Source: Hyphomicrobiales bacterium | GTDB lineage: Bacteria; Pseudomonadota; Alphaproteobacteria; Rhizobiales; Beijerinckiaceae | Length of the DNA: 64,000 nucleotides | Assembly: GCA_028869185.1 (NCBI GenBank) | Contig: JAGWTA010000005.1 | Span: 1 to 64,000, forward strand | Direction: 5' to 3' | Shown: positions 8,151 through 58,607 of the stretch, piece by piece | How the letters are laid out: each line of letters opens with the position of its first letter | How positions within the stretch are numbered: the first letter of the stretch is position 1 | Position numbers and translations under genes: made by a program | Notes under the pieces: generated by a model | Seen by the model: only the letters and a program-made list of their open reading frames with translations | Told to the model about the DNA's origin: nothing | Databases searched by the model: none

Positions 8151-8183
8151 TGGATGGATTGCTTCGCTTCGCTCGCAATGACG
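8151..8183. repeat. Palindromic repeat element, half copy
   Basis: TGGATGGATTGCTTCGCTTC followed by GCTCGCAATGACG matches the right arm of the repeats at 3938-4028 and 4571-4656; the left arm is absent. It sits between apt and prfA and looks like a decayed or truncated member. Confidence 0.75.
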
Positions 8184-8191
8184 GGCCGCCT

Positions 8192-22071: not shown

Positions 22072-22072
22072 G

Positions 22073-24348: not shown

Positions 24349-24371
24349 CAACCGCACATAAGGACCTCGCC

Positions 24372-28695: not shown

Positions 28696-28705
28696 GGGCG
28701 CGGCC

Positions 28706-31923: not shown

Positions 31924-31933
31924 GGGCGGGAAT

Positions 31934-32212
31934 ATGGACGGCAAGCTGCTGGCCCGGATCGGCGCAATCATGTTCGTGGCAGTCGCGATCACCGCGACGG
32001 TGATCGAACTGACACGCAAGGATGAACCGGCGACAATACCGTCGGTGCGCATCGTTCAGCCCGAACGAGATCCCCTGCGTGAAGAACAGCGCCGCTGCCA
32101 GCAGCTCGGCCAGAAAGCAGCCGACGATGCCGAATGCCTGCGCACCTGGGCGGAAACCCGCGACCGCTTTCTTGGTCGTGCTTCCTCTCCGTTCTCCAGC
32201 GAAGGGTGGTGA
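31934..32212 (+). CDS. trbK: TrbK-like entry-exclusion lipoprotein candidate
   Basis: A 92-residue protein with one N-terminal membrane segment (ARIGAIMFVAVAITATVIEL) and a periplasmic tail with two Cys (RRCQQLGQ and DAECLRTWAE). The size, two-Cys pattern and position between trbJ and trbL match the alternative TrbK proteins of Rhizobiales ICEs, proposed to exclude a second copy of the element. No lipobox is clear, so lipidation is doubtful. Exclusion activity is inferred from position. Confidence 0.75.
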   Translation: MDGKLLARIGAIMFVAVAITATVIELTRKDEPATIPSVRIVQPERDPLREEQRRCQQLGQKAADDAECLRTWAETRDRFLGRASSPFSSEGW

Positions 32213-32215
32213 CGC

Positions 32216-38386: not shown

Positions 38387-42314
<3,928 letters not shown>

Positions 42315-42322
<8 letters not shown>

Positions 42323-43262
42323 TGTCTCCCGATCCTTTCCCAAGTTCAGCCTTGATGATGAAACTGTTCTGCGCGGCATAGACGTCGCCTTCCAGCACGC
42401 CGAAGGTGATTTCGACGAACTGCGGATCCCGCTCGCCGACCTCGACATCCCGTGCTTCGAATTTCCCTCCGTTGCGGACGAACACGACCGTGCGATTCTC
42501 CCAGGTCTGTAGCGCCGACGACTTCACTGCTACGCTTACCTGCTTCGCAGACAGGGTCAGCCGGCCCGTGATGAACAACCCGGGACGCAACCGCTGTTTC
42601 GAATTCATCACCACAGCTCTGGCAATCGCGCTCTGGGTGTCGCTGCTGCCAACCGGCGACAAATACGAAACCTTGGCCTCGATCGCGGGGCCGCCGTCGG
42701 CGGGATCGATGAACACCTGGTCGCCGATGCTGACCCGCTTCAGGTCGCGGCGGTAGACGGAGAAGTCCACCCACACGTTCGATAGGTCTGCGACGACGAA
42801 GGCCGGTTTCTGCTCGGAGACGTACTCGCCCAAGGTCGTCTGGCGATCGATCACCGTACCGCCGAGCGACGCCTTCAATTCATACAGCGTTAGGCTCTGA
42901 TTGCTCTCGATGACAGCTAGGACATCGCCCTTTTGGACCACGTCGCCGATGCGTTTGCGCACGTCGCGAACGATCCCCGGAAATCGGGGCGTGACTTGCA
43001 CCAGCGATTCCTGGTTGGGCTGGACCATTCCGTTCAGTAATAGGCTGTCGCGCAGCACGCCGGACGATGCTTTCGCAAGCTCTATTCCTGCCGTCTCGAT
43101 CTTGGCATCGCTCAGTGTGACGCTGTCGGCATGCTCTTCCTTTTCGGTCTTTTCTGTTGGGGTTGGTTTCGGCGCCGCGGGCGTCAGCATCTGATAGCCG
43201 CCGTAAACAAGCGCGGCGGCGATCAGAATGAACATGGAATAGCGGACAATAGCCTTCATCAT
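42315..43262 (-). CDS. czcB: CzcB-type membrane-fusion protein
   Basis: Periplasmic adaptor of 315 residues linking CzcA to CzcC. An N-terminal membrane anchor (residues 5-27), a short His/Glu-containing linker (KEEHADSVTLSD), a barrel-sandwich hybrid domain (VTPRFPGIVRDVRKRIGDVV, ASLGGTVIDRQTTLGEYV) and a beta-barrel domain are seen. The alpha-hairpin is very short, as in many HME-type adaptors. It overlaps czcC and the PII-like gene. Confidence 0.93.
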
Positions 43263-44530
43263 CGGGAACTCTGGTGCGTGAGCGAAAACGGATTGCCGAC
43301 GAGACCTTCGATCGTGGCCACGGCGATATGGAAATTCTGCAGGGCCTCCTGTTCGCGCAGCAGCGCCTGCAACAGCGATCCCCGAACGTCGAGCAATTCG
43401 AGCAGGGTGAAGCGGCCCTGCGAGTAGCCGTTGAGGATCGTCTCGGCGGCGCTGCGGGCGTTGGGAATGACCGACGACCGCAACAGCTTGAGCTCGGCCA
43501 GGGCACCAGTCAGAGTATCGTAGGCGCGGCCGGCGATGCTGAGCAGCACCAGCTTGTTGATCGCCCGCTCCGCATCCGTCTTCGCGAGCGCCTCATGTGC
43601 CGCGATGATGTTACCGGTGTTTTGGTCGAAGACCGGAAGCGGGATCGAAACGCCAAGTCGCACCGCGTTGTCGTTCGTGTCCTGGTAATGCCGCCAGCCG
43701 GCCGAAATGCGCAGGTCCGGAATGGCCTTCAGCCGGGCGATAAGGAGTTCGGCATTGCGCTGCGCGGTGACAGCGGTCCAGCGCGCCAATTGCGGATTGG
43801 CGTCGATCGCCTGGAGTACGGCGTTGAACGGTGGCGGCTGACCGGTACTTGCCAGCCGTCCCACGGCTTTGCCGAACTGCGGGCTGGCATCCCCCATTAG
43901 GACCGCGAGATCGCGACGCGCCGTGGCCAGCAGCGCTTTGGCGCGTTCCCGTTCGACCCGGAATAGGTCGGCGGCGACCTGCGCCCGCAGCGTTTCGGCA
44001 GGCGAGGACGCGCCCTCCTGGACGCGTTTTTGCAATAATGGAATCAGCGGATCGAAGCTCGCGATCTGCTCATCGAAGATCTCGATGCGCCGCTGCGCGC
44101 TGATGATCGTGATGAAGGCAATCGCTGTTTCGGACAGGACTTCCAGCCGCGTCGCTCGCCGCTGCCAGACGGCCATGCCGATGCCGGCCTCGCCGGCCGC
44201 AACGCGTGCTTCCCGCTTGCCGCCCAGTTCGACGAGTTGGCTAAGCTGCAGGGTCGTCTCGGCCGACCGAACCCCTTTGTACGGCCCCGTTCCGAGCGCG
44301 TTGTCGAGTTCGAACGAGGCCTCTGGGTTGGGAAGCGCGCCGGCTTGAACGCGGAGGCCGCCCGCGATGCCGATATCACGCTCGGCCGCGGTCAATCGCG
44401 GATTCGCAGCCAACGCACGCTGTAATGCCTGCGGCAGCGAGATGGCGCGCGAAGAACGTTCGGCAGCCTCGACGGGAACTATTATGAGCAGTGCGCACGT
44501 CAGGCGCACGGCCACTCGAACCAAAAGCAT
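43259..44530 (-). CDS. czcC: CzcC-type outer-membrane efflux protein
   Basis: TolC-like outer-membrane channel, 423 residues. Signal peptide (VAVRLTCALLIIVPVEAAE), then paired OEP repeats with long helices (SLPQALQRALAANPRLTAAE; RTQL-type periplasmic helices). First gene of the czcC-czcB-PII-czcA-accessory run; the stop overlaps czcB. No separate promoter is obvious in the 62 bases upstream. Confidence 0.93.
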   Translation of the reverse strand: MLLVRVAVRLTCALLIIVPVEAAERSSRAISLPQALQRALAANPRLTAAERDIGIAGGLRVQAGALPNPEASFELDNALGTGPYKGVRSAETTLQLSQLVELGGKREARVAAGEAGIGMAVWQRRATRLEVLSETAIAFITIISAQRRIEIFDEQIASFDPLIPLLQKRVQEGASSPAETLRAQVAADLFRVERERAKALLATARRDLAVLMGDASPQFGKAVGRLASTGQPPPFNAVLQAIDANPQLARWTAVTAQRNAELLIARLKAIPDLRISAGWRHYQDTNDNAVRLGVSIPLPVFDQNTGNIIAAHEALAKTDAERAINKLVLLSIAGRAYDTLTGALAELKLLRSSVIPNARSAAETILNGYSQGRFTLLELLDVRGSLLQALLREQEALQNFHIAVATIEGLVGNPFSLTHQSSR

Positions 44531-44592
44531 ATTACCGACCTGAATAGCGAAAAGACTACAACGCGACTGAGTTGCGCGCTGCGGCTAAGGCT

Positions 44593-44949
44593 TCAGATCA
44601 GATGTTTGGGGGGTGGCAACTCCGGCAGGCGCGCTTCAAGGTCAACAGCAGTGTCGCTTGAGAACGACATTTGCAGGGACATGCTGGCCGGTATGTAGAC
44701 TAACGCGGCTACGGGCACGGTGATGGGGGCGCAAGTGGGACAATGCTCGACCACCGTCGGGGCCTTTTTCGAGCCTTCGTCGGCCTTGTCAGAAGCGGCA
44801 CTTATGCTGGTCGAGACGAGGGTTTCCTCCGCGCACGCAATCTCGCCCGCAAATCCAACCACCAGATATACCGCAGCAAGGAACGCCATCAGCACCCGGC
44901 GAAAAGCCGATGCCCGGGTCGTCCCTCTCTGGGTAGATGTTCGCTTCAT
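44593..44949 (-). CDS. CzcI-like small protein upstream of czcC
   Basis: A 118-residue protein with one N-terminal hydrophobic segment (LMAFLAAVYLVVGFAGEIAC), a periplasmic EHCPTC motif and a hydrophobic patch (ITVPVAALVYIPASMSL), ending in ELPPPKHLI. Small proteins of this shape, with a His/Cys motif and Pro-rich end, precede czcC in many operons (CzcI or DUF2946 type) and are suspected regulators or sensors. Assignment is by pattern and place only. Confidence 0.55.
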   Translation of the reverse strand: MKRTSTQRGTTRASAFRRVLMAFLAAVYLVVGFAGEIACAEETLVSTSISAASDKADEGSKKAPTVVEHCPTCAPITVPVAALVYIPASMSLQMSFSSDTAVDLEARLPELPPPKHLI

Positions 44950-45027
44950 CGAGGCCTGCAATATCAAGTTTCAGGGCGCAACACTACCACGATTTTAGGG
45001 CACGAAGCGCCGCCCTTCACATCGGCG

Positions 45028-45918
45028 TCATTGGTGTCGGGCCCGAGCCGCCGGCGCAAACACTGCCAATGCTAGCGGCAGCAATGTGAACCTGGCGGGC
45101 GTGAAGGTCGTAATTTCACCGTCGGTATTGACTGGGAGCGGAGGGTCCGTGTGGACTTCAAGAGGCCCTGAGCTGCAGAAAGCCCGCATGCCGCCCAAAT
45201 TTCGGTTACGCCCGCGTCGAAAGGCAGCCAGGAAGAGCGGCCATTGCCAAAATTGTCGCGGCGCAACACTGTAGAAATCCAAGCATTGGTCGTCGATTGC
45301 CGCTGCCTCGTAGACGGCCATGCCGCCGCCGTAATACACGCCATTGCCGACAGCGATCTGCAAGCTTCGAAGTTGAATGGTGCTGTCAGTAGTAACGACT
45401 TCAGCTGCAAAGGGCCTCATATAGATTGCGGTTTTAACCGCCGCTAGCGGGTAGCTAAGCCGCCCCAAATGCCGTTTGAGGTTACCAGTCATCCTACGCG
45501 CAAGTTCAACGCTTAGCCCCATGCTCGCAACGTTGAGGAAGAACTGGTCATTGACTTGGCCGACATCAATCCGGCGCTTGTAACCTGCGGTGATAATTGT
45601 AGCCGCCGCTACTGGGTCAATCGGAATGCAAAGTGTCCGAGCAAGGTCATTTGTCGTGCCGAGTGGCAATATGCCAAGCGGCAGTCCAGTATTCACCAAG
45701 CTGGAGAGAGCCGCGTTAACTGTTCCGTCGCCGCCGCCGACGATCACACAATCGACTTCTTGTGCTCTGCGGGCGATCTCGTGCCTCATCTCTTCCGGTT
45801 TGTGGCACAGGCTTGGTGTGAGCGTGATCCCGCCGACCTCAAGTTGTCGAACGGCGTCATTCGCCGCGCGACCGCTCCCGTTGCGACTCCGCGGATTCAA
45901 GAACAAGAGCGCACGCAT
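45028..45918 (-). CDS. Diacylglycerol/lipid kinase family protein
   Basis: A 296-residue ATP-dependent lipid kinase of the DagK/YegS type. Core motifs: MRALLFLNPRSRNGSGRA, VIVGGGDGTVNAALSS and ILPLGTTNDLARTL. The C-terminal domain has VGNGVYYGGGMAVYEAA. The start at 45918 is the conserved Met; the frame is open to 45996. On a metal island it may remodel lipids or undecaprenol, but no link is shown. Confidence 0.88.
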   Translation of the reverse strand: MRALLFLNPRSRNGSGRAANDAVRQLEVGGITLTPSLCHKPEEMRHEIARRAQEVDCVIVGGGDGTVNAALSSLVNTGLPLGILPLGTTNDLARTLCIPIDPVAAATIITAGYKRRIDVGQVNDQFFLNVASMGLSVELARRMTGNLKRHLGRLSYPLAAVKTAIYMRPFAAEVVTTDSTIQLRSLQIAVGNGVYYGGGMAVYEAAAIDDQCLDFYSVAPRQFWQWPLFLAAFRRGRNRNLGGMRAFCSSGPLEVHTDPPLPVNTDGEITTFTPARFTLLPLALAVFAPAARARHQ

Positions 45919-46023
45919 TTTATCTGGGCGATGGTCCACCGTTACTTCCTCGAAGGTCAAATTGCAGTAAGCTAACGTGCAGAGATTCGACCACACCGCC
46001 CATCAAATGCGGCCGCGTGCGCA

Positions 46024-46728
46024 TCAACCAATCGCTCCCAGCGCCGGAAACGTCGTCAGCATCCAAATTGCGATTTCCTGCAATCTGCCGGTCATCAGCA
46101 GGACGCCAACACCGATCATAATGGCTCCCCCGCCGATATTCAGTGCGACACCGAAGCGGCGCATGCGCTTTAGTGCGGCGGCGGCGTTTCCCATGAGAAT
46201 GGCCGTGAGAAGAAACGGCACGCCGAGTCCGAGACCGTAAGTTCCGAGAAGAATCGCGCCATTGCCCGACGAGGTCGCGGTCACCGTGAGGATCGAGCCT
46301 AACACCGGGCCAATGCATGGCGTCCAACCGAAGGCAAAGGCCACGCCCAGCAGGAAGGCACCGACCGGTCCGTTGACCTGGCGCGGCCCATTCCATCGGT
46401 GGTCGGCCATCAGCATCGGGAGGCGGAGGAGCCCGGTCATCGCCAATCCGAAGACGATGACCAGAGCCCCACCGATCAAGTTGGTTTCCGTCTGGAAGCG
46501 TTGGAGAACGCCGCCAAGGGCCATCGCGCTGATTCCAAGCAGCACGAAGATGGTCGTGAACCCAAGCACGAACAGGAGCGCCGGGCGGAAGATGTGAAGC
46601 CGGGATACCGCACCGCCGCTGCCGGTCGCGCCGGCTCCACCAGCAACATAGGACAGGTAGCCCGGCACGAGGGGCAGGACGCAGGGAGAAAGAAAGGAGA
46701 TAGCGCCAGCGGCCGCCGCTGTCGCCAA
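46024..46728 (-). CDS. ccdA: CcdA-type thiol-disulfide transporter
   Basis: Inner-membrane protein that passes reducing equivalents from thioredoxin to the periplasm. It has about 234 residues with the reactive Cys in SFLSPCVLPLVPGYLS and TPCIGPVLGSI and six or so TM segments. The only usual start in this frame is a TTG at 46728; similarity would continue about ten codons further, to the lspA stop at 46761, so the true start may be non-standard or the 5' end is worn. It follows lspA directly. Confidence 0.85.
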   Translation of the reverse strand: MATAAAAGAISFLSPCVLPLVPGYLSYVAGGAGATGSGGAVSRLHIFRPALLFVLGFTTIFVLLGISAMALGGVLQRFQTETNLIGGALVIVFGLAMTGLLRLPMLMADHRWNGPRQVNGPVGAFLLGVAFAFGWTPCIGPVLGSILTVTATSSGNGAILLGTYGLGLGVPFLLTAILMGNAAAALKRMRRFGVALNIGGGAIMIGVGVLLMTGRLQEIAIWMLTTFPALGAIG

Positions 46729-46760
46729 GCCGAGCAGGGATATATCCGGCGCGACCGTCC

Positions 46761-47285
46761 TCAGCGCTTTCCGTTACTGGACCCTTCCTGCGCGCGGAGC
46801 GCCGATCGGGATGAAGAAAGTGATCCCGCCAAGAGGAGCGCGACGCCAGTGCTGATCGCAACGTCCGCCATGTTGAAGGCAGGCCAATGCCAGTTGCCGA
46901 CGTGAAAATCGAGAAAGTCGGTCACCACGCCTTGATGCACGCGGTCAACGATGTTGCCGGCGCCGCCGCCGGCTATCAAACCGAGAGCCGTGGCTTCAAC
47001 AATCCTGTGGGTCCGCATTGCCCAAACGAGAAGACCGACCGTGATCGCCACTTTGATCCCGGCAAGAACCAGCGGACGCTCGAGAAAAATATCTTGGAAC
47101 ATGCCGAAGCTGACGCCAGTGTTGAAGCCGAGCGTCAGGTTCAAAAAGGGCGTAACCTCGATCGTGCGCGGCGAGACCATGGCGACATTTAGGATCAACC
47201 ACTTTGTAGCGACATCGAGCAGAAGCGCGGCGGCAAGTCCGCCACCAACCCATATCGCGCGATCTCGACGGGAGCTTCCGGCCAC
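46761..47285 (-). CDS. lspA: Lipoprotein signal peptidase (PbrC-like)
   Basis: Aspartic peptidase that cleaves prolipoproteins, 174 residues, four TM segments. Conserved motifs are FNTGVSFGMF, IAGGGAGNIVDRV (first catalytic Asp) and FNMADVAIS (second). Mobile metal islands often carry an LspA next to a lead/zinc ATPase, where it is called PbrC; here it is 83 bases after the P-type ATPase. The host surely has its own essential lspA, so this one is an accessory copy. Confidence 0.9.
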   Translation of the reverse strand: MAGSSRRDRAIWVGGGLAAALLLDVATKWLILNVAMVSPRTIEVTPFLNLTLGFNTGVSFGMFQDIFLERPLVLAGIKVAITVGLLVWAMRTHRIVEATALGLIAGGGAGNIVDRVHQGVVTDFLDFHVGNWHWPAFNMADVAISTGVALLLAGSLSSSRSALRAQEGSSNGKR

Positions 47286-47368
47286 GACAATTCCTCATAT
47301 TATTGGAGTTCAGGTCGGCATTTCTCTGCCGGCAGCGGCCGCCCCAACACAAGGCGACTGCTGTTAAT

Positions 47369-50300
47369 TCAATGCGCGGGTGCGGGGCTAGCCGCAGCAG
47401 AATGCCCGCGCTCATCTGTCCGAACCTTTGCGCCGCCGGTTGGGCCACCTTCCGTCTGGCGCTGTCCACGATTGAGAAGGCGCAACCCGTTGGACACGAC
47501 CAGCAGAGATGCGCCGACATCGGCGGCGATCGCGCCCCAAAGCGACGCGAGACCGATTATGGTCAGTACAGTGAACAATAGCTTCACCGCGATCGAGAAG
47601 GCGATATTTTGTCGAATAACGGTGAGCGTGGCTCGTGAATGACGCACCAGCCAGGGCAACCTCGAAAGATCATCCGACATCAGCGCAACGTCGGCGGTTT
47701 CAATGGCCGCATCGCTACCCATCGCGCCCATGGCAATGCCGAGATTGGCGCGGCCCATGGCAGGAGCGTCGTTGACTCCGTCGCCCACCATCGCGACCGC
47801 GCCATAGCGCCGAACCAGGTCTTCGACGGCGGCGACCTTATCACCGGGCAAAAGTTCCGCGCGAACCTCGTCGATGCCTGTCTGCTTGGCAATCGCCTCG
47901 GCGGTGGCCCGATTGTCGCCTGTCAGCATCACGACCTTTTCGATGCCAGCACGATGGAGTGCGGTTACGATGTCCTTGGCTTCAGCCCTCACAGCGTCGG
48001 CGACGGCGATCAGTCCCCAGACCTCCTGGCTGTCGCCGACCGCGACAATGGTACGGCCAGCCCAGGAAAGAGCGTCGGCCCGCTCCAGAATGGCCGTCGA
48101 GCTGATCGCGCGTTCATCGAGGTAGCGACGCGACCCGAGCCAGACTTCGCGACCGGAAACGCGGCCGGTCATGCCGCGCCCCGTGATGGCCTGGACCGCC
48201 TCAGCCGGTTGCGTGGCGATCCCACCTTCAGTTGCCCTTGCTAGAATAGCGCGCGCTATCGGATGCTCGCTGCGGGCCTCGAGGGCCGCGGCCAGCCTAA
48301 GAACGTCCCCTTCGCTGCGATTACCGAGCGCCACGATCTCCACAACCCGCGGACGCCCTTCGGTGAGCGTTCCAGTCTTGTCCATGGCGATTGCCTTCAG
48401 GCGCGCCGGCGTTTCGAGATGGACACCACCTTTCACCAGGACGCCCTGCTTTGCCGCTCCGGCGAGGGCGGCCACGATCGTCACCGGTGTCGAGATTACA
48501 AGGGCGCACGGGCAAGCGATCACCAGCAGCACGAGGGCGCGATAGAACCAAACCTCCCAGCCACCGCCAAGCAACAGCGGCGGCACCAGAAAAATGGCGA
48601 TCGCCAGTGCCATCACGACCGGGGTGTAGATCCTGGCGAACTTCTCGACCCACTGCTCGCTGGGTGCGCGTCGGCCCTGCGCGGAGCCGACCATGCGGAT
48701 GATCTGCGCGAGCGTGGTGTCGTTTGCGGCCTTGGTGGTCACGACATCGAGCGCGCCTTCACCGTTGATGGTGCCGGCAAAGACCTCGTCCCCCTCGGAC
48801 TTGAAAACGGGAACGCTTTCGCCGGTGATCGGCGCCTGGTTGACCTCGCTCTCGCCAGCGGCCACCCGGCCGTCGAGAGGAACCTTGTCGCCGGGTCGAA
48901 TGATGATGTGAGCGCCGACACGGACCTCGGCGGCCGGAATGTCACGCTCGGTCCCGTCTTCGAGCTTGATGCGCGCTGTCGGCGGCGCGAGCTCCATGAG
49001 AGCCGCGACCGCACGCCGCGCCCGGCCGAGGCTCCAAGCTTCGAGCGCCAGAGCCAGCGCGAAGAAGAACGAGACGGTTGCAGCTTCGAACCAGGCGCCG
49101 ATGCCGATCGCGCCCGCGACGGCAATCACCATCAGGAGATTCATGTCAGGGCGCAGTCTTCGCGCCGCAAACCATGCCTTGGGAGCGACGTAGCGCACGG
49201 CACAGAGCACCGCGAGCGAATAGAGGATGATGCTCGGCAGCGGCGTCGCGCCTACAGCGTGTTCGCCGGCCTCGAAGGCAGCGATAATCCCGCCTGCGAG
49301 CCAGGCATGCACCGCAAAGCCGAGCGCGGCGAAAACGCCGCTTGCGCCTGTCAGCCACGACTGAATACGCCGCCGGCGTTCTTCTGCCTGCGCGGCTTCG
49401 CTGGTCACGCCTTCGGTCCATGGCTCTGCGCGCAGACCTGCGCGAGAGACGGCTTTCTCGATGCGAGCTTCCAACGCCGCGTCGGGTGTAATGTCGATCG
49501 ACATGCGGCCGTTGAGGAGGTCAAAGGCGAGCCTGTCTTCGCCGACGAGCGGACCGACTTCACGCTTCAGCGCGGCGATCTCATCGGCACAATCCATGCC
49601 GTGGATTCGATAGACGACGCCGCCAGGCAGATTGGTTGGGAGCGGCAGGCTAAGGGCTTCTTGCACCTCGGCCGTGCAACTGCACGCGGAGCCTGCGGCA
49701 TCGCAAGTTGCCGGCTCAGCAACGGATGGCGACGACCACGGCTCAGCTCGCATCCCCGTTCGCGCGACGGCCTGCTCGATCTGCTGGAGTGTTGCCCGGT
49801 TCTGGGGTGCAACGGTCATTGCGCCCTGCGCAGTGTCGAATGCGAGGTTGTCTTCGCCGACGAGCGGTCCCAGTTCCCTGGTTAGAGCAGCCACCTCGTT
49901 CTTGCAGTCGAGGCCGTGCACGCGCAGAAACACGGCTTCATCGGAACCATCTCCGACGAGAGAGCCGGACATTCCGGTCTTTGAGAGGCCGCGCAAGAAT
50001 TCGTCGATCGAAGTACGCTGTCGAGGCGCGACCGTCATCAACCCCTTTGTCGTGTCGAAGGCAAGCCGGTCCTCGCCGCCCACCAGTGGACCGATTTCGC
50101 GCTTGAGGATCGCGACCTCGTTCTTGCAATCGAGCCCTTCGACCTTGAACAGCCACGCAGATGCCGTCGGCTTGTCCGACTGCGGCAACAGCTTGGCTTG
50201 CATCCCGGTGGAGGCGACCGCCTGTTCGATTGCGCCGAGAGCCGGGGCGCTCTGACCCACCACCTCCATGACGCCGCCCTTGGTGTCGAACGACAACTTG

Positions 50301-50425
50301 TCCTCGCCACCCACGACCGGACCGACCGCGGCACGAAGCATCCGAACTTCGTTCTGGCAATCCAAGCCGTCGACCTTGAAGCGTAACGGGCCTGAAGTGC
50401 TCCTTGTCCCGGCATCTGCGGTCAT
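47369..50425 (-). CDS. P1B-type Zn/Cd/Pb-exporting ATPase with four HMA domains
   Basis: ATP-driven efflux pump, 1018 residues. The N-terminus holds four tandem metal-binding-like domains, each with DC(Q/K/A)(N/D)E instead of CxxC: Cys at 23, 100, 174 and 279, separated by repeats of EVxxLKRExGPLVGGED. A Cys cluster C241/C248/C250 lies before the fourth. The transport core has the TM motif CPC (VLLVIACPCALVIS), TGE (APITGESVP), DKTGT, SEHP and GDGVNDAP. Most relatives have one or two such domains. It is divergent from merR and is the first gene of the minus-strand cargo run. Confidence 0.94.
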   Translation of the reverse strand: MTADAGTRSTSGPLRFKVDGLDCQNEVRMLRAAVGPVVGGEDKLSFDTKGGVMEVVGQSAPALGAIEQAVASTGMQAKLLPQSDKPTASAWLFKVEGLDCKNEVAILKREIGPLVGGEDRLAFDTTKGLMTVAPRQRTSIDEFLRGLSKTGMSGSLVGDGSDEAVFLRVHGLDCKNEVAALTRELGPLVGEDNLAFDTAQGAMTVAPQNRATLQQIEQAVARTGMRAEPWSSPSVAEPATCDAAGSACSCTAEVQEALSLPLPTNLPGGVVYRIHGMDCADEIAALKREVGPLVGEDRLAFDLLNGRMSIDITPDAALEARIEKAVSRAGLRAEPWTEGVTSEAAQAEERRRRIQSWLTGASGVFAALGFAVHAWLAGGIIAAFEAGEHAVGATPLPSIILYSLAVLCAVRYVAPKAWFAARRLRPDMNLLMVIAVAGAIGIGAWFEAATVSFFFALALALEAWSLGRARRAVAALMELAPPTARIKLEDGTERDIPAAEVRVGAHIIIRPGDKVPLDGRVAAGESEVNQAPITGESVPVFKSEGDEVFAGTINGEGALDVVTTKAANDTTLAQIIRMVGSAQGRRAPSEQWVEKFARIYTPVVMALAIAIFLVPPLLLGGGWEVWFYRALVLLVIACPCALVISTPVTIVAALAGAAKQGVLVKGGVHLETPARLKAIAMDKTGTLTEGRPRVVEIVALGNRSEGDVLRLAAALEARSEHPIARAILARATEGGIATQPAEAVQAITGRGMTGRVSGREVWLGSRRYLDERAISSTAILERADALSWAGRTIVAVGDSQEVWGLIAVADAVRAEAKDIVTALHRAGIEKVVMLTGDNRATAEAIAKQTGIDEVRAELLPGDKVAAVEDLVRRYGAVAMVGDGVNDAPAMGRANLGIAMGAMGSDAAIETADVALMSDDLSRLPWLVRHSRATLTVIRQNIAFSIAVKLLFTVLTIIGLASLWGAIAADVGASLLVVSNGLRLLNRGQRQTEGGPTGGAKVRTDERGHSAAASPAPAH

Positions 50426-50575
50426 CGCGACCTCCTGAATAGCTTAACTGTCTTGAGCGTGGCTCGACTCCTGAGCGTACCCAACATTCTGTAGTCGCTG
50501 CAAAATCAAGGAGCCCAAGCCAAGTTTGCTGTTGGCTGCCATTGGGGTCACCTCGACAAGTTCGACATGACGACC

Positions 50576-50606
50576 CATATGGACCCTGTAGCAACTATAG
50601 GGTCAA
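50576..50606 (-). promoter_or_regulatory. MerR-type operator/promoter of the P1B ATPase
   Basis: On the minus strand a -35 TTGACC (50601-50606) and a -10 CATATG (50576-50581) are 19 bp apart, the over-long spacer of MerR-activated promoters. An imperfect dyad at 50582-50604, GACCCTGTAGC-A-ACTATAGGGTC, fills the spacer. It lies 5 bases before the merR ATG and about 150 bases before the ATPase start. Confidence 0.9.
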
Positions 50607-50610
50607 GGCC

Positions 50611-51033
50611 ATGACAGGCGACTTCCTGGCGATCGGGGAACTGGGGCGCAGAACCGACACCAAGGTCGAGACCATCCGCTATTACGAGCGGATCGGTCTG
50701 CTGGCCGCGCCGCGCCGGACGGCCGGCAATTATCGCGCCTATGGAGCGGAGCACCTGATTCGCCTCAGCTTCATCCGACGCTCGCGAGACCTTGGATTTT
50801 CGCTCGACCAGGTGCGCGCATTGCTCGATCTGGCCGATCAGCGCGACCGGTCTTGCGACGCCGTCGATGCGATCGCAAAAGAACACCGGGCCGAGGTTGA
50901 CCGAAAGATCGCCGACTTGCGCGCGTTGCGTCGCGAATTGGATAGTATGATCGATCAATGCCGCTGCGGCACCGTTGCCGATTGTCGGATCATCGAAGCT
51001 CTATCGCCCCAAGCTCAACTGCGACCAAGATAA
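50611..51033 (+). CDS. MerR-family divalent-metal regulator (PbrR/CadR/ZntR-type)
   Basis: A 140-residue activator. The N-terminal winged HTH (LAIGELGRRTDTKVETIRYY) is followed by a dimerisation helix and C-terminal metal loop. Cys at 82, 117, 119 and 125 (DQCRCGTVADC) suit Pb, Cd or Zn sensing better than Hg or Cu. The ATG at 50611 lies 5 bases from the operator; the frame is open to 50542 but would cross it. Divergent from the ATPase it should control. No canonical ribosome site is visible. Confidence 0.92.
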   Translation: MTGDFLAIGELGRRTDTKVETIRYYERIGLLAAPRRTAGNYRAYGAEHLIRLSFIRRSRDLGFSLDQVRALLDLADQRDRSCDAVDAIAKEHRAEVDRKIADLRALRRELDSMIDQCRCGTVADCRIIEALSPQAQLRPR

Positions 51034-51137
51034 CTGGGGCGTCTTCTTCTCTGGCTTGCCGCAGGTTTTACGACGGCTCATCGACCATCTTAATGCGGCT
51101 CACGAAATAGCTGGACGTCGCCACTATCACACTGGCG

Positions 51138-51734
51138 CTAAAGAATGCTGGTGATCAGCCGATCGGCCCGCGTTCCTTCCCGATAGAGTGAGCGGACCAG
51201 AATGGCAGCGACAATCCCGGTCGAGGCCCCGCCGAGAATGTCGCCGACATAGTGCGTTCCGACATAGACCCGGGAGATCGTCACAAGCACGGCGACGGCT
51301 AGGAACCACCGACCAAGTCGCCGCATGCCGTGTAGCAGGAAGGCTGCCGCGACGGCGAAGGTCGCAGTGGCGTGATCGGAGGGGAATGACGGATCGACGC
51401 TACGGTCGATCAGAAGATGCGTGATGCCGCCATCATATGGCCGTATCCGATGGACGAACAACAGTATGATCTGGTTGATCGCAAGGCCAAGGAGAAAGGA
51501 AAACCCAGCGGCGACGAGAACGTGCCTGTTATGCGATCTGTCCGGACCTCGCCACCATTGTCCGGCGACAGCCAGGACAAGAAGCGGGATGCCGACCGCC
51601 GAGACCCAGATCATCAGGAAATCGATCGTGGCGCTCGCTCCGGCGAGGCAGTTGATGGCGCGAGTCGTTGCGGCGTCGACGTCGTATAGCTGCAAAGCTA
51701 AATCCTCATCTCGTTGTCGGCACCTTACGGACAT
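51138..51734 (-). CDS. PAP2 membrane phosphatase (PbrB-like)
   Basis: A 198-residue PAP2/undecaprenyl-pyrophosphatase-type enzyme. The three phosphatase motifs are present in order: VHRIRP, PSFPSDHATATF and SRVYVGTHYVGDILGG. In pbr systems PbrB releases phosphate in the periplasm to precipitate lead pumped out by the ATPase. That role is inferred here from the neighbours. It is downstream of the MFS gene on the same strand with 29 bases between. Confidence 0.85.
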   Translation of the reverse strand: MSVRCRQRDEDLALQLYDVDAATTRAINCLAGASATIDFLMIWVSAVGIPLLVLAVAGQWWRGPDRSHNRHVLVAAGFSFLLGLAINQIILLFVHRIRPYDGGITHLLIDRSVDPSFPSDHATATFAVAAAFLLHGMRRLGRWFLAVAVLVTISRVYVGTHYVGDILGGASTGIVAAILVRSLYREGTRADRLITSIL

Positions 51735-51763
51735 GTCGGTGCATAGCGTGAATGATGTTCTTG

Positions 51764-52987
51764 TCAGACTTGGCGTAGACCTTTCAGCCGGCCGCGAACA
51801 AGCAGCAGACCCAACGTGGTCAGCACGGCGAAAGCAACGCCTGCGAGGAAGGTCGCTTGCGGTCCGATCGCATCCCAGAGTGTTCCGGCTATCACGCTGG
51901 CGGCCAGCAGCATCAGACCGGTGACGAGATTGAACATGCCATAGGCGGTACCTCGAAGCTCGCCGGGAGCAGCCTCAGCGATCAGTGTCGCGAAAAGCCC
52001 TTGGGTGAAGCCCATATGCAGGCCCCAGAGCACGACACCGAAGCCGATTCCCAAAAGGGAGGTGGCGAAAGCGAGTGTGAGATCGGCGAGGACAAGTAAG
52101 ACCATGCCGAGGATCAGGATTGTCATCCGGTCCATCCGGTCGGACAGAATGCCGATCGGATAGGCCGAGAGCGAATAGGCAAGGCTCATCAGCACTAGCA
52201 CGATCGGGACGAGCGCCAGCGGCAGGCCGATCGACTGGGCGCGCAGGACGAGAAAGGCTTCGCTGAAGCGCGCGAGCGTGAACACCGCCGCGACTGCTAC
52301 GACCCACCAATAGGCCGAGCCGAGGCGGCGCAGTTCCGCGCGATGCAGCGGCATACGGACTTTGCGCAGCTCCTTCGACCGCTCCGGCTCCTTCACGGCG
52401 ACGAGAATGAGCGCGACCGATAGGAAAGCCGGAATGACGGCGATCCAGAACACGGTCTGGAAATGGTCCGCCGTCAGCCACATCAGACCGATGGCGAGAA
52501 GCGGGCCGATGAAGGCGCCCACCGTGTCGAGCGACTGGCGCAGGCCGAAACTGGCGCCGCGCAGTTCGGGCGGCGCGATGTCGGCAACGAGTGCATCGCG
52601 CGGCGCGCCACGGATGCCCTTGCCCACGCGATCGATAAAGCGCGCGGCGACGAGCCAATCGAGTGAGGAAGCGAGCGGAAAGATCGGCTTGGTGAAAGCG
52701 GCGAGCCCGTAGCCAAGGGCGGCGAGAAACTTGCGCTTGCCGAGCCAGTCGCTGAGAGCGCCCGAAAAAACCTTTGTAATCGAGGCGGTCGCTTCGGCGA
52801 TGCCCTCGATGATGCCGACGGCCAGCGTCGAAGTCCCGAGCACCGTCACCATGTAGATGGGCAACAACGCGTGGATCATCTCCGAGGAGATGTCCATCAG
52901 CATCGAGACGAAGCCCAGAGCCCACACGCCGGCTGGAATGCTCTGCCGCTCTCCGGAGACCAGGGTCTTCTCCGTAATCTTATCCAT
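51764..52987 (-). CDS. MFS transporter
   Basis: A 407-residue inner-membrane transporter with twelve predicted TM segments. The loop-2/3 motif GALSDWLGKRKFLA and the loop 8/9 motif GILSDRMDRMTI are present, as is RGAPRDALVADIAPPELRG. Genes like this follow ChrB-N genes on metal islands; chromate or another anion/metal substrate is plausible but unproven. The ATG at 52987 is preferred; the frame is open to 53050. Confidence 0.82.
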   Translation of the reverse strand: MDKITEKTLVSGERQSIPAGVWALGFVSMLMDISSEMIHALLPIYMVTVLGTSTLAVGIIEGIAEATASITKVFSGALSDWLGKRKFLAALGYGLAAFTKPIFPLASSLDWLVAARFIDRVGKGIRGAPRDALVADIAPPELRGASFGLRQSLDTVGAFIGPLLAIGLMWLTADHFQTVFWIAVIPAFLSVALILVAVKEPERSKELRKVRMPLHRAELRRLGSAYWWVVAVAAVFTLARFSEAFLVLRAQSIGLPLALVPIVLVLMSLAYSLSAYPIGILSDRMDRMTILILGMVLLVLADLTLAFATSLLGIGFGVVLWGLHMGFTQGLFATLIAEAAPGELRGTAYGMFNLVTGLMLLAASVIAGTLWDAIGPQATFLAGVAFAVLTTLGLLLVRGRLKGLRQV

Positions 52988-53071
52988 CTCATCGGTTCTC
53001 TTCGTGAGCGTTGAAGGCGCGCCGGGCATAGTTGTCGAGAAGGGCTTCACAGCTGTAGGCGGCCAACTGCT

Positions 53072-53737
53072 TCAGGTGGAATTGGTGCTTGAGCTGCTTG
53101 AGCGGTTTTCGTCCTGCGCCTCAAATACTTCGCGCGCATAGTCATCCAACAGGGTTGCGCAACGAGCGAGTCGTTCCTCAGCTTCGGAGCGGAGGGAGGC
53201 ATTGTAGAAGTCGAGACGGATGATTTTCTCGATCCACGCGCGCAGCTTCGTCAGATCCTCTTCGTTTTCTTCAACCTCGGCATAGGTGAACTTCCCGTTT
53301 CCGCGCTCCTTCGCTATTTCGCCGTCAAAGTCGTCGCAGCGGCTGATGAATTCGCGATAGGCCTCATCCCGCTCGGCTGAAAATCGAGCGATCACCTTCT
53401 GCTCCTGCGTGTGGTCAAGCCCCACGGTTTCGAGAAGCACTGCGTCGCCATCCATCTCGGAGATCTCGTTCTGCAGGACCTTCAAACGCCGCTCATGTGT
53501 GTCAATCTTGGGTAACAAGCACACGCCATTTTGCAGATAGATGGCCCCCATAGCCTTTAATTTGCGCCATAACGCGATGCGTCGCTTTGCCGGTTCAGCG
53601 GGCACCTTGTACGTCAGAAGCAGCCAGGACCGAGAACCGCCTTGGCGGGCTTTTTCGGATTTCAACCTGACGGTCTGCGGCCCTTGTTTGATCTCCGGGC
53701 GGCGCACTCTTTTTGCGCGGCTGTGTTCTGTTGTCAT
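53072..53737 (-). CDS. ChrB N-terminal-domain protein
   Basis: A 221-residue protein with the ChrB-N fold (SWLLLTYKVPAEPAKRRIAL, LKAMGAIYLQNGVCLLP), a helical middle rich in Glu/Arg and a Ser-rich end (ENRSSSSSTNST). The C-terminal catalytic part of full ChrB is absent. ChrB-type proteins regulate chromate resistance. A longer frame from 53809 would end 6 bases from the palindrome at 53815-53832, so the ATG at 53737 is preferred. It precedes the MFS gene on the same strand. Confidence 0.78.
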   Translation of the reverse strand: MTTEHSRAKRVRRPEIKQGPQTVRLKSEKARQGGSRSWLLLTYKVPAEPAKRRIALWRKLKAMGAIYLQNGVCLLPKIDTHERRLKVLQNEISEMDGDAVLLETVGLDHTQEQKVIARFSAERDEAYREFISRCDDFDGEIAKERGNGKFTYAEVEENEEDLTKLRAWIEKIIRLDFYNASLRSEAEERLARCATLLDDYAREVFEAQDENRSSSSSTNST

Positions 53738-53814
53738 GATTTTTGATTCGACTTCGGAAACCTTGGCCGGTCCCCTGACAGTCGCTCCTTGAACCGATTC
53801 AATATCCACGATAG

Positions 53815-53832
53815 ATGTTACGGCCGTAACAT
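53815..53832. promoter_or_regulatory. 18-bp perfect palindrome in the divergent promoter
   Basis: ATGTTACGGCCGTAACAT is perfectly self-complementary. It lies between the ChrB-N gene (minus) and the MFP-RND pair (plus, first ATG at 53875), so one dimeric regulator could control both directions. The ChrB-N protein is the nearest candidate binder. Confidence 0.8.
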
Positions 53833-53874
53833 TTTATCTGTCCATATATTCCAAAAAATCGAGGCTGGCCATAT

Positions 53875-54909
53875 ATGTCTTGCCAACAAATGCGCGCCGT
53901 GGCCGCACTCCGCGTAGCGCTGCTTGTGCTGACCATTTGGGGCGGCGCCGTCCAAATCGGGCAGGCTCAGCCCGCCGCTCGGTCGCAGCCGACCGATTCC
54001 GCCGCAGGCGACCCGACAATGGTCAAGCTTTCTCCGGAACAGCAGAAGCAGGTTGGGCTTCAGACCACAGAGCTGATCGTGGAACCCCATCCCGAGCAGT
54101 TCCGTGCCTACGGCGCCGTCCTGGATATCGCCCGCGTAACTGAACTCACGAACAGTTATGCCAATGCCCAAGCGCAGCTCCAGATGGCGCAGGCAAGATT
54201 CGACGTCGCAAGGAGCGCATTCGAGCGCGCGAAGAATCTGGCGCAGTCCGCAGCGCTTCCCAGGAAGGATGCCGAAGCCGCCGAGGGAACGTTCCGTGCT
54301 GAACAGGCCGCGCTGACGGCCGCTGAATCGCAGGTGAGGACCTTGGCGGCGACGGCGCAACAGGAGTGGGGTCCGCTGATCGGCAAAGCAATCGTCGAGC
54401 GCTCGCCAACCGTTGTCCGGCTGATTGAGCGTGAAAGGTTTCTGGTTCAGGTGACGCTACAGCCCGGCGTCACCTTGGCGGACCCTCCTCGGACGGCCCT
54501 CGCACAGGCACCCGCGCGCGACGCCAACATCGACCTTCAGTACCTCTCCCCGGCAACCCGGACGGATGCGCGCATTCAGGGCGTGAGCTACTTCTTCACG
54601 GCGCAGGGGGACAGCGGCCTGCTGCCAGGAATGAACACGACGGTGTATGTGCCGTCTGGCAAGACCTACGACGGAGTGTTCGTCGAGGACACAGCCATCG
54701 TGCGCTGGCAGGGACGCTCCTGGGTGTACCTGCGCGTCGGTCCCGAGGCGTTCAAGCGGCACCCGATCAGCACTGACCAACCGGTCTCCGACGACGATTA
54801 TGTCGTGCGAGACCTTCCAGCCGGCGCGGAAATCGTGACCCGTGGCGCGCAGGTCCTCCTTTCCGAGGAGGCCAAGAGCGAGCTTCGAGGCAACGCCGAC
54901 AATGACTGA
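53875..54909 (+). CDS. RND membrane-fusion protein
   Basis: Periplasmic adaptor of 344 residues. A signal sequence ends near GQAQPAARSQ, followed by a lipoyl/HlyD-like barrel, a helical hairpin (QAQLQMAQARFDVARSAF...AAEGTFRAEQAALTAAESQV) and a beta-barrel (DSGLLPGMNTTVYVPSGK). It overlaps the downstream permease by 8 bases. No OMF gene is present, so it may use another outer-membrane channel such as CzcC. Confidence 0.85.
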   Translation: MSCQQMRAVAALRVALLVLTIWGGAVQIGQAQPAARSQPTDSAAGDPTMVKLSPEQQKQVGLQTTELIVEPHPEQFRAYGAVLDIARVTELTNSYANAQAQLQMAQARFDVARSAFERAKNLAQSAALPRKDAEAAEGTFRAEQAALTAAESQVRTLAATAQQEWGPLIGKAIVERSPTVVRLIERERFLVQVTLQPGVTLADPPRTALAQAPARDANIDLQYLSPATRTDARIQGVSYFFTAQGDSGLLPGMNTTVYVPSGKTYDGVFVEDTAIVRWQGRSWVYLRVGPEAFKRHPISTDQPVSDDDYVVRDLPAGAEIVTRGAQVLLSEEAKSELRGNADND

Positions 54910-57900
54910 CGGCGATCTCGGCACCCACGCGGGGCCCCAAGCAGCTCTGGTCTCGTCTGCCATTCGCTTCCGTGGAATCGTGCTCGCTTTGGCGTGCGCG
55001 CTGTTGGGCTACGGATTGTATTCGCTTGCGAGCGCCAAGTATGGCGTCTTCCCCGAATTCGCGCCACCGCAAGTCGCGATTCAGACGGAAGCGCCCGGGC
55101 TGAGCCCGGAGCAAGTCGAGATTCTTGTCACCCAGCCGATCGAAACGTCCATCAACGGATTGGCGGGCGTCGAAAGTATGCGTTCGTCCTCGATTCAGGG
55201 CTTGTCGGTCATCACGGTTGTATTCCGCCCCGGCAGCGAGATTTACCGCGCGCGCCAACTCGTGAACGAGCGCGTCGCGGTGATCGCCACCCGGCTCCCG
55301 CAGGGCGTCCAACCTCCCGCGATGACCCCGTTGACCCCAACCGCCGGCACGGTTCTGGTCATCGGTCTGACGTCCGATCAGCGCTCGTTAATGGATTTGC
55401 GCACCATCGCGGACTGGACCGTGGCGAGGCGCCTGTTGGCCGTGCCAGGTGTCGCGCAAGTTTCGACCTACGGCAGAGACGTGAGATCCCTACAGGTGCA
55501 GGTCCGCCCGGACGATCTGATCCGGTTTCGGGTTGGCATGAATGACGTCCTGGCCGCCGCGCGCAAGGCCACAGGGGTGCGGGGCGCCGGTTTCGTAGAC
55601 ACGGTCAATCAGCGCATTACGCTCCAGACCTTTGGCCAGTCGTTGACACCGGAGCAAGTCGCCCGCACCGTTCTGATGCATGAAGGCGGCGCAAGCGTGG
55701 TGCTCGGGGACGTCGCGAACGTCGTTGTGGCTCCCGAACCGCCGATCGGCGCTGCTCTCATCAATGGCAGGCCAGGCATCGTGCTGATGTTAAGCCAGCA
55801 ATACGGAGCCAACACGCGGGAAGTCACAACGCGGGTGGAAGTTGCGCTGCAAGAACTGCGACCGGCGCTTGAGCGTGAAAAGGTTCAACTTCATGCCGAT
55901 TTGTTTCGGCCGGCCAATTTCATCGACACGGCAACCCAAAACGTGCTGCACGCCCTCCTGATCGGGGGCGCGCTGGTGATCATCATTCTGTTCCTTTTCC
56001 TGTTCGACTGGCGTACCTCGATCATCAGTTGTACCGCGATCCCGCTCTCGCTGGTCGCGGCGGTGCTTGCCCTGCAATGGATGGGTGAGACCCTCAATAC
56101 CATGACACTCGGTGGGCTCGCCATTGCCATCGGCGAGGTGGTCGATGACGCGGTGATCGGCGTCGAGAACGTCGTGCGCCGATTGCGCGAGAATCGCCGA
56201 TTGGCTGAACCGAGAGCCGAGGGCCGCGTCGTGTTCGACGCGATCCTCGAGGTCCGCAGCGCCGTCGTGTACGCGACCTTCGCTGTCTTGCTGGTGTTCT
56301 TTCCTGTCCTCACGCTCTCAGGCGTCGGTGGACGTCTGTTCGGGCCTTTGGGTATCGCCTACATCCTTGCGGTGCTCGCCTCCCTCGCGGTCGCGCTGAC
56401 CGTTACGCCCGCGCTTTCGATGTTGCTACTCGTCGGAAAGAACCGAAGGGAGCATCGGGACCCGCCAGTGGTTCGCTGGTCGCGCGGCTATTATGAAAAG
56501 CTGCTCCGGCGCATTGAGCGCTTTCCGAGGCTCGTCGTCGCAACAGCCTTTGCCCTTACCATCGCGGGCGCGGCGATGTTGCCGTTCTTTGGCGGTACTT
56601 TCCTGCCCGACTTGCGAGAAGGACATCTCATCCTCCACGTCTCGGCGATACCGGGCACTTCGCTCGACGAGTCACTTCGGATCGGAGGCCTGATCACTGA
56701 AGCCCTCCGAAAGGTTCCGGGCGTGCGCAGCGTCGCACAGCACGCAGGGCGTGCCGAAGCCGGCGTGGATACCGTAGGTCCGCACTACAGCGAGTTCGAG
56801 GTTGACCTACAGCCGGGGCTTTCCGGCCACGATCAAACCGTGGCCGAAGCGCACATGCGAGAAGCCCTTGCGAAGTTCGCCGGCATCAGTTTCTCGCTCA
56901 AGACCTATTTGGCGGAGCGGGTGGAGGAAACGGTATCGGGCTTTACCGCCGCGCTGGCCGTGAACGTGTACGGGGCCGATCTCGATTCACTGGAGAGAGC
57001 CGCGCGAGACGTAGCGCGCGAGTTGAGCGAGGTTCCAGGCGCCGTGGATGTCCAGCAACAATCTCCGCGAGGGATGCCGCAGATCAACGTGACGCTACGT
57101 CCCGCCGACCTGCAGCGATGGGGACTCGATGCCGTCGAAGTGCTCGATCTGATCCGCACAGCTTATCAGGGTGATGTCGTCGGGCAGGCATATGAAGGCA
57201 ATGCGGTCTTCAATGTGACCGTGATCCTCGACGCACAGGCGCGCGTCAGGCTCACGCAGATTGGCGATCTCCCTCTGCGGACGTCGGGCGGAGCCTACGT
57301 TCTTCTGAAGCAGGTGGCCGATGTCTACGAAACATCCGGTCGGTATCAGGTCTTGCATCGAGGCGCGCAGCGCGTTCAGACGGTGACCGCGAACGTAAGC
57401 GGACGTGATCTCGCGTCCTTTGTCAGTGACGCCAAGCGCAAGATCGCCAAAGAAGTCGTGTTGCCACCCGGAGCACACGTGGAGTTCGCCGGCGCTGCCG
57501 AGGCACAAGCTCAGTCGCAGCGTGATCTGCTTGTGAATACACTGCTGGCTGCATTCGGCATCGTTCTTCTGCTTTCGATTGTCACCGGCCACTGGCGCAA
57601 CCTTGTTCTGATTCTGGTCAACCTGCCATTCGCGTTCGTGGGCGGGGTCTTTGCGGTCGCTTTGACCGGCGGACTGCTCTCGCTCGGATCTCTGGTCGGC
57701 TTCGTAACCCTGTTCGGCATCACATTGCGCAATTCCATCCTGATGATTTCGCACTACGAACATCTCGTTATGGTCGAAGGCCGCGCGTGGGTTCTCGAAA
57801 CTGCCGTCGAGGGTGCGGCGGATCGACTCGTTCCGATCCTCATGACATCTCTGGTGACAGGCCTCGGCTTGCTTCCGCTCGCGCTTGGTGCGGGCGAGCC

Positions 57901-58057
57901 GGGGCGAGAAATTGAAGGCCCGATGGCGATCGCTATTCTGGGCGGCCTCATGACGTCGATGGCGCTCAACCTGCTGGTCCTGCCGACACTGGCTCTTCGA
58001 TACGCTCGCTTCGATCGTGGAAAGACAGGTGCGGTCCGAGGGAAGGAGATGGCCTGA
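54902..58057 (+). CDS. Second heavy-metal-type RND permease
   Basis: A 1051-residue RND pump. TM4 reads GLAIAIGEVVDDAVIGVENVV: D415, D416 and E422 remain, but the first Asp of the CzcA DFG...D set is replaced by a small residue, closer to the CusA or uncharacterised HME groups. Two periplasmic porter regions and twelve TM segments are seen. The substrate differs from czcA but cannot be named. The ATG at 54902 overlaps the MFP stop region. Confidence 0.88.
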   Translation: MTDGDLGTHAGPQAALVSSAIRFRGIVLALACALLGYGLYSLASAKYGVFPEFAPPQVAIQTEAPGLSPEQVEILVTQPIETSINGLAGVESMRSSSIQGLSVITVVFRPGSEIYRARQLVNERVAVIATRLPQGVQPPAMTPLTPTAGTVLVIGLTSDQRSLMDLRTIADWTVARRLLAVPGVAQVSTYGRDVRSLQVQVRPDDLIRFRVGMNDVLAAARKATGVRGAGFVDTVNQRITLQTFGQSLTPEQVARTVLMHEGGASVVLGDVANVVVAPEPPIGAALINGRPGIVLMLSQQYGANTREVTTRVEVALQELRPALEREKVQLHADLFRPANFIDTATQNVLHALLIGGALVIIILFLFLFDWRTSIISCTAIPLSLVAAVLALQWMGETLNTMTLGGLAIAIGEVVDDAVIGVENVVRRLRENRRLAEPRAEGRVVFDAILEVRSAVVYATFAVLLVFFPVLTLSGVGGRLFGPLGIAYILAVLASLAVALTVTPALSMLLLVGKNRREHRDPPVVRWSRGYYEKLLRRIERFPRLVVATAFALTIAGAAMLPFFGGTFLPDLREGHLILHVSAIPGTSLDESLRIGGLITEALRKVPGVRSVAQHAGRAEAGVDTVGPHYSEFEVDLQPGLSGHDQTVAEAHMREALAKFAGISFSLKTYLAERVEETVSGFTAALAVNVYGADLDSLERAARDVARELSEVPGAVDVQQQSPRGMPQINVTLRPADLQRWGLDAVEVLDLIRTAYQGDVVGQAYEGNAVFNVTVILDAQARVRLTQIGDLPLRTSGGAYVLLKQVADVYETSGRYQVLHRGAQRVQTVTANVSGRDLASFVSDAKRKIAKEVVLPPGAHVEFAGAAEAQAQSQRDLLVNTLLAAFGIVLLLSIVTGHWRNLVLILVNLPFAFVGGVFAVALTGGLLSLGSLVGFVTLFGITLRNSILMISHYEHLVMVEGRAWVLETAVEGAADRLVPILMTSLVTGLGLLPLALGAGEPGREIEGPMAIAILGGLMTSMALNLLVLPTLALRYARFDRGKTGAVRGKEMA

Positions 58058-58204: not shown

Positions 58205-58291
58205 TGGTGCGGGCGGTCGGACTCGAACCGACATATTGTTGCCAACGGTGGATTTTGAATCCACTGCGTCTACCAATTCCGCCACGCCCGC
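58205..58291 (-). tRNA. tRNA-Leu(CAA), complete, carried by the island
   Basis: An 87-base tRNA on the minus strand. The acceptor GCGGGCG/CGCCCGC pairs perfectly; the D-arm has GGAATTGGTAGAC; the anticodon stem-loop is GTGGA-TTCAAAA-TCCAC (anticodon CAA, decoding UUG); there is a long variable arm; the T-arm is GTCGG-TTCGAGT-CCGAC; CCA is encoded. The body differs from the host tRNA-Leu(CAA) whose halves flank the island. It is inside the right end, 157 bases from the right core. Confidence 0.96.
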
Positions 58292-58396
58292 ACTTTGCCG
58301 CCGATTCCAGCCAAGGCTCACAGCTCCTATGCTGCACCTAGCGCCGTTCCGGCGATTTGAACACCCTACACTCCCACCCCATCAGCCCCTTGAAAA

Positions 58397-58419
58397 CACG
58401 ACGATTTCAACTCGTCGTG
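58397..58419. repeat. Hairpin near the right island end
   Basis: CACGACGA (58397-58404) pairs perfectly with TCGTCGTG (58412-58419) over a 7-base loop. No U-tract follows. It is 30 bases inside the right core and could be an integrase or accessory-protein site rather than a terminator. Confidence 0.5.
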
Positions 58420-58423
58420 ATTT

Positions 58424-58484
58424 CCTGTGGATTGGTAGACAAACCCCTTTTTGAGTCGAGCGCGTCTACCAATTCCGCCACAGG
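58424..58484. repeat. Inverted copy of the tRNA-Leu 5' region at the right junction
   Basis: CCTGTGGATTGGTAGAC at 58424-58440 (island side) is the reverse complement, less 4 bases, of GTCTACCAAT...CCACAGG at 58464-58484 (tRNA acceptor and D-arm, host side). The arms flank the right core symmetrically. The island thus carries, in inverted orientation, a fragment resembling the tRNA gene it entered. Confidence 0.7.
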
Positions 58485-58487
58485 GGC
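58449..58487 (-). pseudogene. 5' half of split host tRNA-Leu(CAA), with right core site
   Basis: On the minus strand, from 58487, this reads acceptor GCCCCTG, the D-arm with GGAATTGGTAGAC, anticodon-stem CTCGA and loop CTCAAAA (58449-58455 is the right core, identical to 19798-19804). Joined to 19752-19797 it gives an 85-base tRNA-Leu(CAA) with fully paired acceptor and anticodon stems. After the loop, the sequence runs into island DNA with no 3' half. Confidence 0.93.
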
Positions 58488-58607
58488 CTTGCCGGCCGGG
58501 GGCCGAAAAGCGCGCGGATCATAGCCGCCGAAGGCCGCGCGTCAACCGGGCTGGCGCGGGCCGGCGCGCGGTGCTATGCGGGCCGCGATTCCAAAAGCGG
58601 CGCCCTC

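Follow-up and report, generated by a model that had tools for sequence, protein, structure and literature searches.

An ICE-derived island that splits the tRNA-Leu(CAA) gene of an alphaproteobacterium and carries a replacement with a change suggestive of self-immunity

Results

The 64,000 nucleotides analysed here (the window) are the start of contig 47 of a draft genome of 2.9 Mb, which consists of 63 contigs and is 95.9% complete. They contain an island of 38.6 kb, which is inserted in the anticodon loop of the host tRNA-Leu(CAA) gene and is bounded at both ends by a copy of the heptamer CTCAAAA (Table 1). Read from its left end, the island carries an integrase, a toxin-antitoxin-like pair, a TraG and TrbB-I module and a metal-efflux cargo, so that integrase, coupling protein and type IV secretion genes, by which an ICE is recognized, are all found on one integrated unit. 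A complete relaxase is absent from the island according to the Pfam and NCBIfam searches, as positions 1–189 of RlxS are missing and an ArdC_N domain is fused in their place. Because of this missing N-terminal part the window copy is best called an ICE-derived island, and it may need help to transfer or may be transfer-defective. We also considered a temperate phage and rejected it, as the island has Trb/TraG conjugation genes, only two distant integrase matches were found in phage records and the pattern of its right end is absent from viral contigs. Integrases about 63–64% identical to that of the island are found on 120 plasmids, mostly conjugative and mostly from Gammaproteobacteria. The window also holds a dispersed repeat, CGTCATTGCGAGCGAAGCGAAGCAATCCATCC, in both orientations at 3997–4031, 4568–4602 and 8152–8189.

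Table 1: Features of the island and of its junctions with the host gene (window positions).
Feature	Position	Strand	Evidence
Orphaned 3' half of host tRNA-Leu(CAA)	19752..19797	-	exact match to same-genus relatives
Left copy of 7-bp core CTCAAAA	19798..19804	-	same place relative to integrase in 30/30 left ends examined
Tyrosine integrase (Arm-DNA-bind_3 + Phage_integrase)	19983..21395	+	Pfam; homologues in 32/38 element genomes
Toxin-antitoxin-like pair (Gp49 / HTH_37)	21703..22453	+	Pfam
ArdC_N fused to C-terminal part of relaxase RlxS, relaxase N-terminus absent	22648..24348	+	Pfam; NCBIfam NF041267 matched from position 190
TraG coupling protein	24240..26354	+	Pfam and NCBIfam searches
Conjugation genes TrbB, TrbC, TrbE, TrbJ, TrbL, TrbG, TrbI	27063..36397	+	Pfam and NCBIfam searches
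Cargo region: RND efflux pump, heavy-metal P-type ATPase, ChrB-like regulator, MFS, PAP2 and DAGK-like proteins	38755..58057	.	Pfam
RND efflux pump (cargo)	38755-42006		Pfam
Second long cargo ORF, read as CusA/CzcA-like pump	54842-58057		judged from its sequence
Replacement tRNA-Leu(CAA), complete, CCA encoded, anticodon loop TTCAAAA (T32)	58205..58291	-	ARAGORN; Rfam RF00005
Conserved right-end module: arm, paired TAGGTGCA-like repeats, GC-rich run before tRNA	58292..58448	-	12/397 family genomes; consensus; 42 loci by pattern; constant spacing to tRNA
Element right arm with GTCTACCAATCCACAGG, inverted complement of host 5' half; long hairpin possible	58424..58448	-	fold; 22/23 distinct integrated members
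Right copy of 7-bp core CTCAAAA (anticodon loop)	58449..58455	-	sequence comparison
Orphaned 5' half of host tRNA-Leu(CAA), ends at anticodon loop, right core copy included	58449..58487	-	exact match to intact genes of same-genus relatives; VTT-gene synteny
Host tRNA promoter-like site TTGACG-16-TATGAT, faces orphan half and replacement tRNA	58518..58545	-	pattern scan: 1 found, 0.1 expected; promoter function inferred

A preliminary description of this DNA had proposed that the element broke the host tRNA-Leu(CAA), and this is borne out by the two halves, both of which match intact genes of same-genus relatives exactly and are single-copy in the genome. In these relatives the intact tRNA-Leu(CAA) adjoins the same VTT-domain gene. 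A search for the host 3' half with a generic T-arm motif gave nothing above chance, and this half was located with the exact sequence taken from the relatives. A truncated tRNA is found at both island junctions and a tRNA is formed at neither. The host tRNA is not rebuilt on integration because the attachment sites have only the 7-bp loop in common, and a classical tRNA-restoring genomic island was rejected on these grounds. Since this core is present at both ends, precise excision would restore the host gene.

The complete tRNA-Leu(CAA) that the preliminary description had placed just inside the right end was called by ARAGORN as the sole tRNA of the window and was also matched by Rfam RF00005 (59.4 bits, E 2.6e-10). 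It lies 157 bp inward from the island right end. Leu tRNAs with the anticodons UAA, GAG, CAG, UAG and CAA were detected in the genome and the only CAA gene is that of the island. Thus no second chromosomal CAA gene, the finding that would have spoken against a replacement, turned up in the genome search, and with a draft assembly at 95.9% completeness the case for a single CAA gene is strong, although not absolute. Dependence of the cell on the island would concern integration itself and imprecise loss, and addiction in the strict sense the latter only, but not precise excision, after which the shared core would restore the host gene. The tRNA-Leu(UAA) that is intact in the genome of the island may decode UUG as well, through wobble, and this could limit how essential tRNA-Leu(CAA) is.

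Upstream of the orphaned 5' half the host promoter-like site is intact. Other members of the island family show a conserved TAGAAT, a putative −10 element of their own, and a GC-rich run directly before the tRNA; the putative −10 element in the window copy reads TGGAAT. Judged from these motifs, the replacement tRNA would be transcribed from the captured host promoter, from a promoter of the element or from both. The arm next to the core contains GTCTACCA and CCACAG, which are the inverted complement of the host 5' half, and the pair of arm and 5' half in the window copy folds at −30.3 kcal/mol (z −4.0). When the arms were compared with shuffled versions, 22 of the 23 distinct members paired better, with a margin above 2 sd. 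The search pattern itself accounts for some of this pairing, but the pairing is also present in members that were identified by similarity. Such a hairpin may keep the orphan transcript and the replacement tRNA apart, or it may serve the integrase. Only the complement GTCTACC..CCACAG is general across the members. The acceptor-strand pairing seen in the fold of the window copy was rejected as a general feature, as there are hosts with GCGGG acceptors without matching arms, and so was a conserved terminator hairpin in the arm, whose pairing, judged by eye, is not kept across members.

The right-end module is found in 12 of 397 genomes of the family, some of these matches being short or partial, and its exact pattern, which required C32 at the right junction as well as a section of the arm, matched 42 genome contigs, nearly all of them alphaproteobacterial. 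By combining the family search with the pattern scan we found the host tRNA-Leu(CAA) 5' half at the junction in 33 genomes from several alphaproteobacterial genera, a recurrence which supports a tRNA swap rather than a repair. In most of these genomes tRNA-Leu(CAA) follows the core at a constant spacing, the distance from the first base of the core being 163–166 nt in the 23 distinct integrated members that were measured. At the other end, the core lies upstream of the integrase gene at a fixed distance (within 11 nt) in 30 integrase loci, and the 3' half of a tRNA-Leu adjoins the left end in 29 of these 30, four of them being UAA targets. When both are on one contig, integrase and replacement tRNA are about 17 to 141 kb apart.

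The swap is a one-for-one exchange. The search for intact CAA genes took in 32 of the 33 broken-gene genomes, and all 32 have a CAA gene with T at position 32 (T32), which is the only CAA gene in 31 of them; the exception, a MAG (G445), has a T32 and a C32 gene. This co-occurrence supports the idea that the element compensates for its own damage. The genomes G404 and G202 and those of loci L141 and L144 had seemed to have no replacement, which was rejected when the T32 gene was found away from the junction. G404 (G404:C1:2824100-2973954) and G202 hold variant islands, possibly composite elements, whose upstream region is different and whose replacement tRNA lies a long way from the junction. 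Genomes with an element outside a tRNA have mostly kept the C32 host gene. One such element, identical in several genomes, carries a tRNA that has lost its CCA and in which the anticodon stem is broken and the T loop changed; the host of this element keeps the C32 gene, and the decayed copy fits a replacement that is constrained only as long as the host gene is broken. In a further genome (locus L105) two intact tRNA-Leu(CAA) genes lie about 11.7 kb apart (G018:C1:4094534 and 4106212), as if another island had duplicated the whole gene.

The anticodon loop of every replacement reads TTCAAAA, in contrast to CTCAAAA in the targets and the core, and the change of C32 to T falls inside the 7-bp core and therefore inside the presumed crossover. 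Among the 397 family genomes a C32 gene is present in 347 and a T32 gene in 11, none having both; the latter are eight swap genomes and three with native genes, which gives a native T32 rate of 3/350. Two replacements (L127 and L145) are identical to a native gene except for base 32. A tRNA tree built with base 32 masked, which resolves poorly with its 86 columns, needs 11 changes between the C and T labels, 8 of them forced by well-supported branches. Read from this tree, T32 arose repeatedly, and its repeated origin at exactly this base indicates selection. Tyrosine integrases are strongly impeded when the overlap contains mismatches, as stated in the accessible part of PMC10865867, and immunity to the own integrase would therefore be the simplest reason for T32.

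Sister elements sit in tRNA-Leu(UAA), with integrases more than 80% identical to those of the CAA elements. In four genomes (G125, G120, G246 and G224) their replacement tRNA-Leu(UAA) is interrupted in the loop. Two of the inserts were tested against the group I intron model RF00028 and matched it over its full length with 37.8 and 32.0 bits (E 4.3e-7 and 2.4e-5), which is below the gathering score of 50 bits. The genome search found no intact uninterrupted UAA gene in any of the four, so that the interrupted gene must presumably work; by standard wobble rules UUA has no other reader. From its position the insert would break the crossover site at the DNA level, and splicing would give back the unchanged loop CUUAAAA. 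The targets of these very similar integrases are cleanly divided between CTCAAAA and CTTAAAA, which suggests that one base of the overlap sets the target, and such a single-base choice would make the T32 change sufficient for immunity. Taken together, T32 and the loop intron suggest that the replacement is immune to the integrase of its own island. Group I-like introns also interrupt native tRNA-Leu(UAA) genes in many family genomes (L225-L254), others being in a different tRNA, and the intron of the UAA elements may thus be inherited.

Discussion

We regard the island as probably an ICE-derived conjugative member of a widespread alphaproteobacterial family that combines a tRNA swap with self-immunity. 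The elements of this family have a related tyrosine integrase and occupy a tRNA-Leu anticodon loop, with the 7-bp loop as the sole shared core. The host tRNA-Leu is split without being rebuilt, and the complete tRNA-Leu of the same isoacceptor that the element brings, usually near its right end, is then normally the only copy of the cell. This replacement differs systematically from a target within the core, by C32 to T in the CAA elements and by a group I-like intron in the UAA elements. In the mechanism that we propose, the replacement would be transcribed and would support decoding. With its core changed, the own tRNA of the element would no longer serve the integrase as a recombination partner, nor would a second element be able to destroy the replacement. 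By pairing with the orphan 5' half, the inverted complement of the arm may sequester this half and prevent it from misfolding with the replacement. As precise excision would give the host gene back, dependence on the island would come from integration itself and from imprecise loss. For the family as a whole it is likely that site immunity is reached by recoding or interrupting the own replacement tRNA, through one crossover base or a self-splicing intron, the host tRNA being destroyed and replaced and sister elements excluded.

The swap could also be real and the two core changes be unrelated to the integrase. U32 would then serve to evade anticodon nucleases or to tune decoding, and the intron would simply have come from a native gene by inheritance. 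Anticodon-loop mutations reportedly allow phage tRNAs to escape defences that cut tRNA (a paper among the references of PMC11476347), and native intron-bearing tRNA-Leu(UAA) genes are common in the family. Against this, the change lies inside the 7-bp core in every lineage, the intron is of no help at the RNA level yet breaks the site in the DNA, and the rarity of native T32 genes shows that decoding alone does not favour this base; we therefore consider this explanation unlikely. It is still more improbable that the tRNA is a passenger picked up with host DNA and that the loss of tRNA-Leu(CAA) is tolerated through wobble reading by tRNA-Leu(UAA). The intact tRNA-Leu(UAA) of the genome would allow this, but the replacement is kept in every broken-gene genome that was searched, distinct tRNA lineages have been recruited at equal distance from the core, and the UAA elements replace UAA too, although no other tRNA reads UUA by standard wobble. 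As most islands in tRNA genes restore the gene (accessible part of PMC4383910), an ordinary integration that restores its target, accompanied by an unrelated extra tRNA, might have been expected, but with 7 bp shared and truncated tRNAs at both junctions it is refuted by the sequence and hardly deserves any credence.

With this family, tRNA-dependent integration is extended from phages to conjugative islands, where it is recurrent in Alphaproteobacteria. The family is a natural repeated experiment on what the overlap of an integrase tolerates and offers a direct test for the old proposal of tRNA introns as a protection of genes against integration. It also shows one route by which foreign tRNA genes replace native ones, and T32 can be used as a simple sequence test for swapped genomes.

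Trb-type ICEs such as Tn4371 have a tyrosine integrase, TraG, the TrbB-I genes and an RlxS-type relaxase. The island resembles Tn4371 in all of these, with a remnant of the relaxase, and differs from it in its target and its tRNA cargo and in the relaxase N-terminus that is missing from the window copy. In the literature searched, with most subscription papers outside reach, we found no report of conjugative elements that swap a tRNA or of a marked replacement, and compared with this literature the T32 mark in every replacement and the intron-split replacement of the UAA islands are new. For prophages of Sinorhizobium meliloti it has been described that a host tRNA gene is swapped for a foreign one, prophages in Leu(UAG) carrying a Leu(UAG) gene; these are prophages that use other isoacceptors, and the accessible part of that paper reports neither a conjugative family nor a mark in the core (PMC11476347). 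Randau and Soll proposed that tRNA introns protect tRNA genes from integration (cited in the accessible part of PMC4390854), and as in the UAA islands an interrupted tRNA gene is then no longer a target. Their idea concerns host tRNA genes, whereas here the integrating element carries the interrupted gene.

The closest known system is the tRNA-dependent lysogeny of actinobacteriophages such as Fionnbharth and Gaia (Guerrero-Bustamante and Hatfull 2024, PMC10865867), and the island works like it but is not a phage. As far as the accessible text of that paper goes, both have a tyrosine integrase, an attB in a tRNA gene and an element tRNA of the same isotype, the tRNA is not rebuilt in either, with a core of about 8–10 bp in the phages and 7 bp in the island, and Gaia uses the same tRNA-Leu-CAA. 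A discussion of how the phage tRNA escapes the integrase was not found in this text. Measured against what it describes, the island is set apart by being conjugative and alphaproteobacterial, by a replacement that usually lies beside the attachment site at a fixed spacing, by the systematic core mismatch or intron and by the inverted complement of the orphan half.
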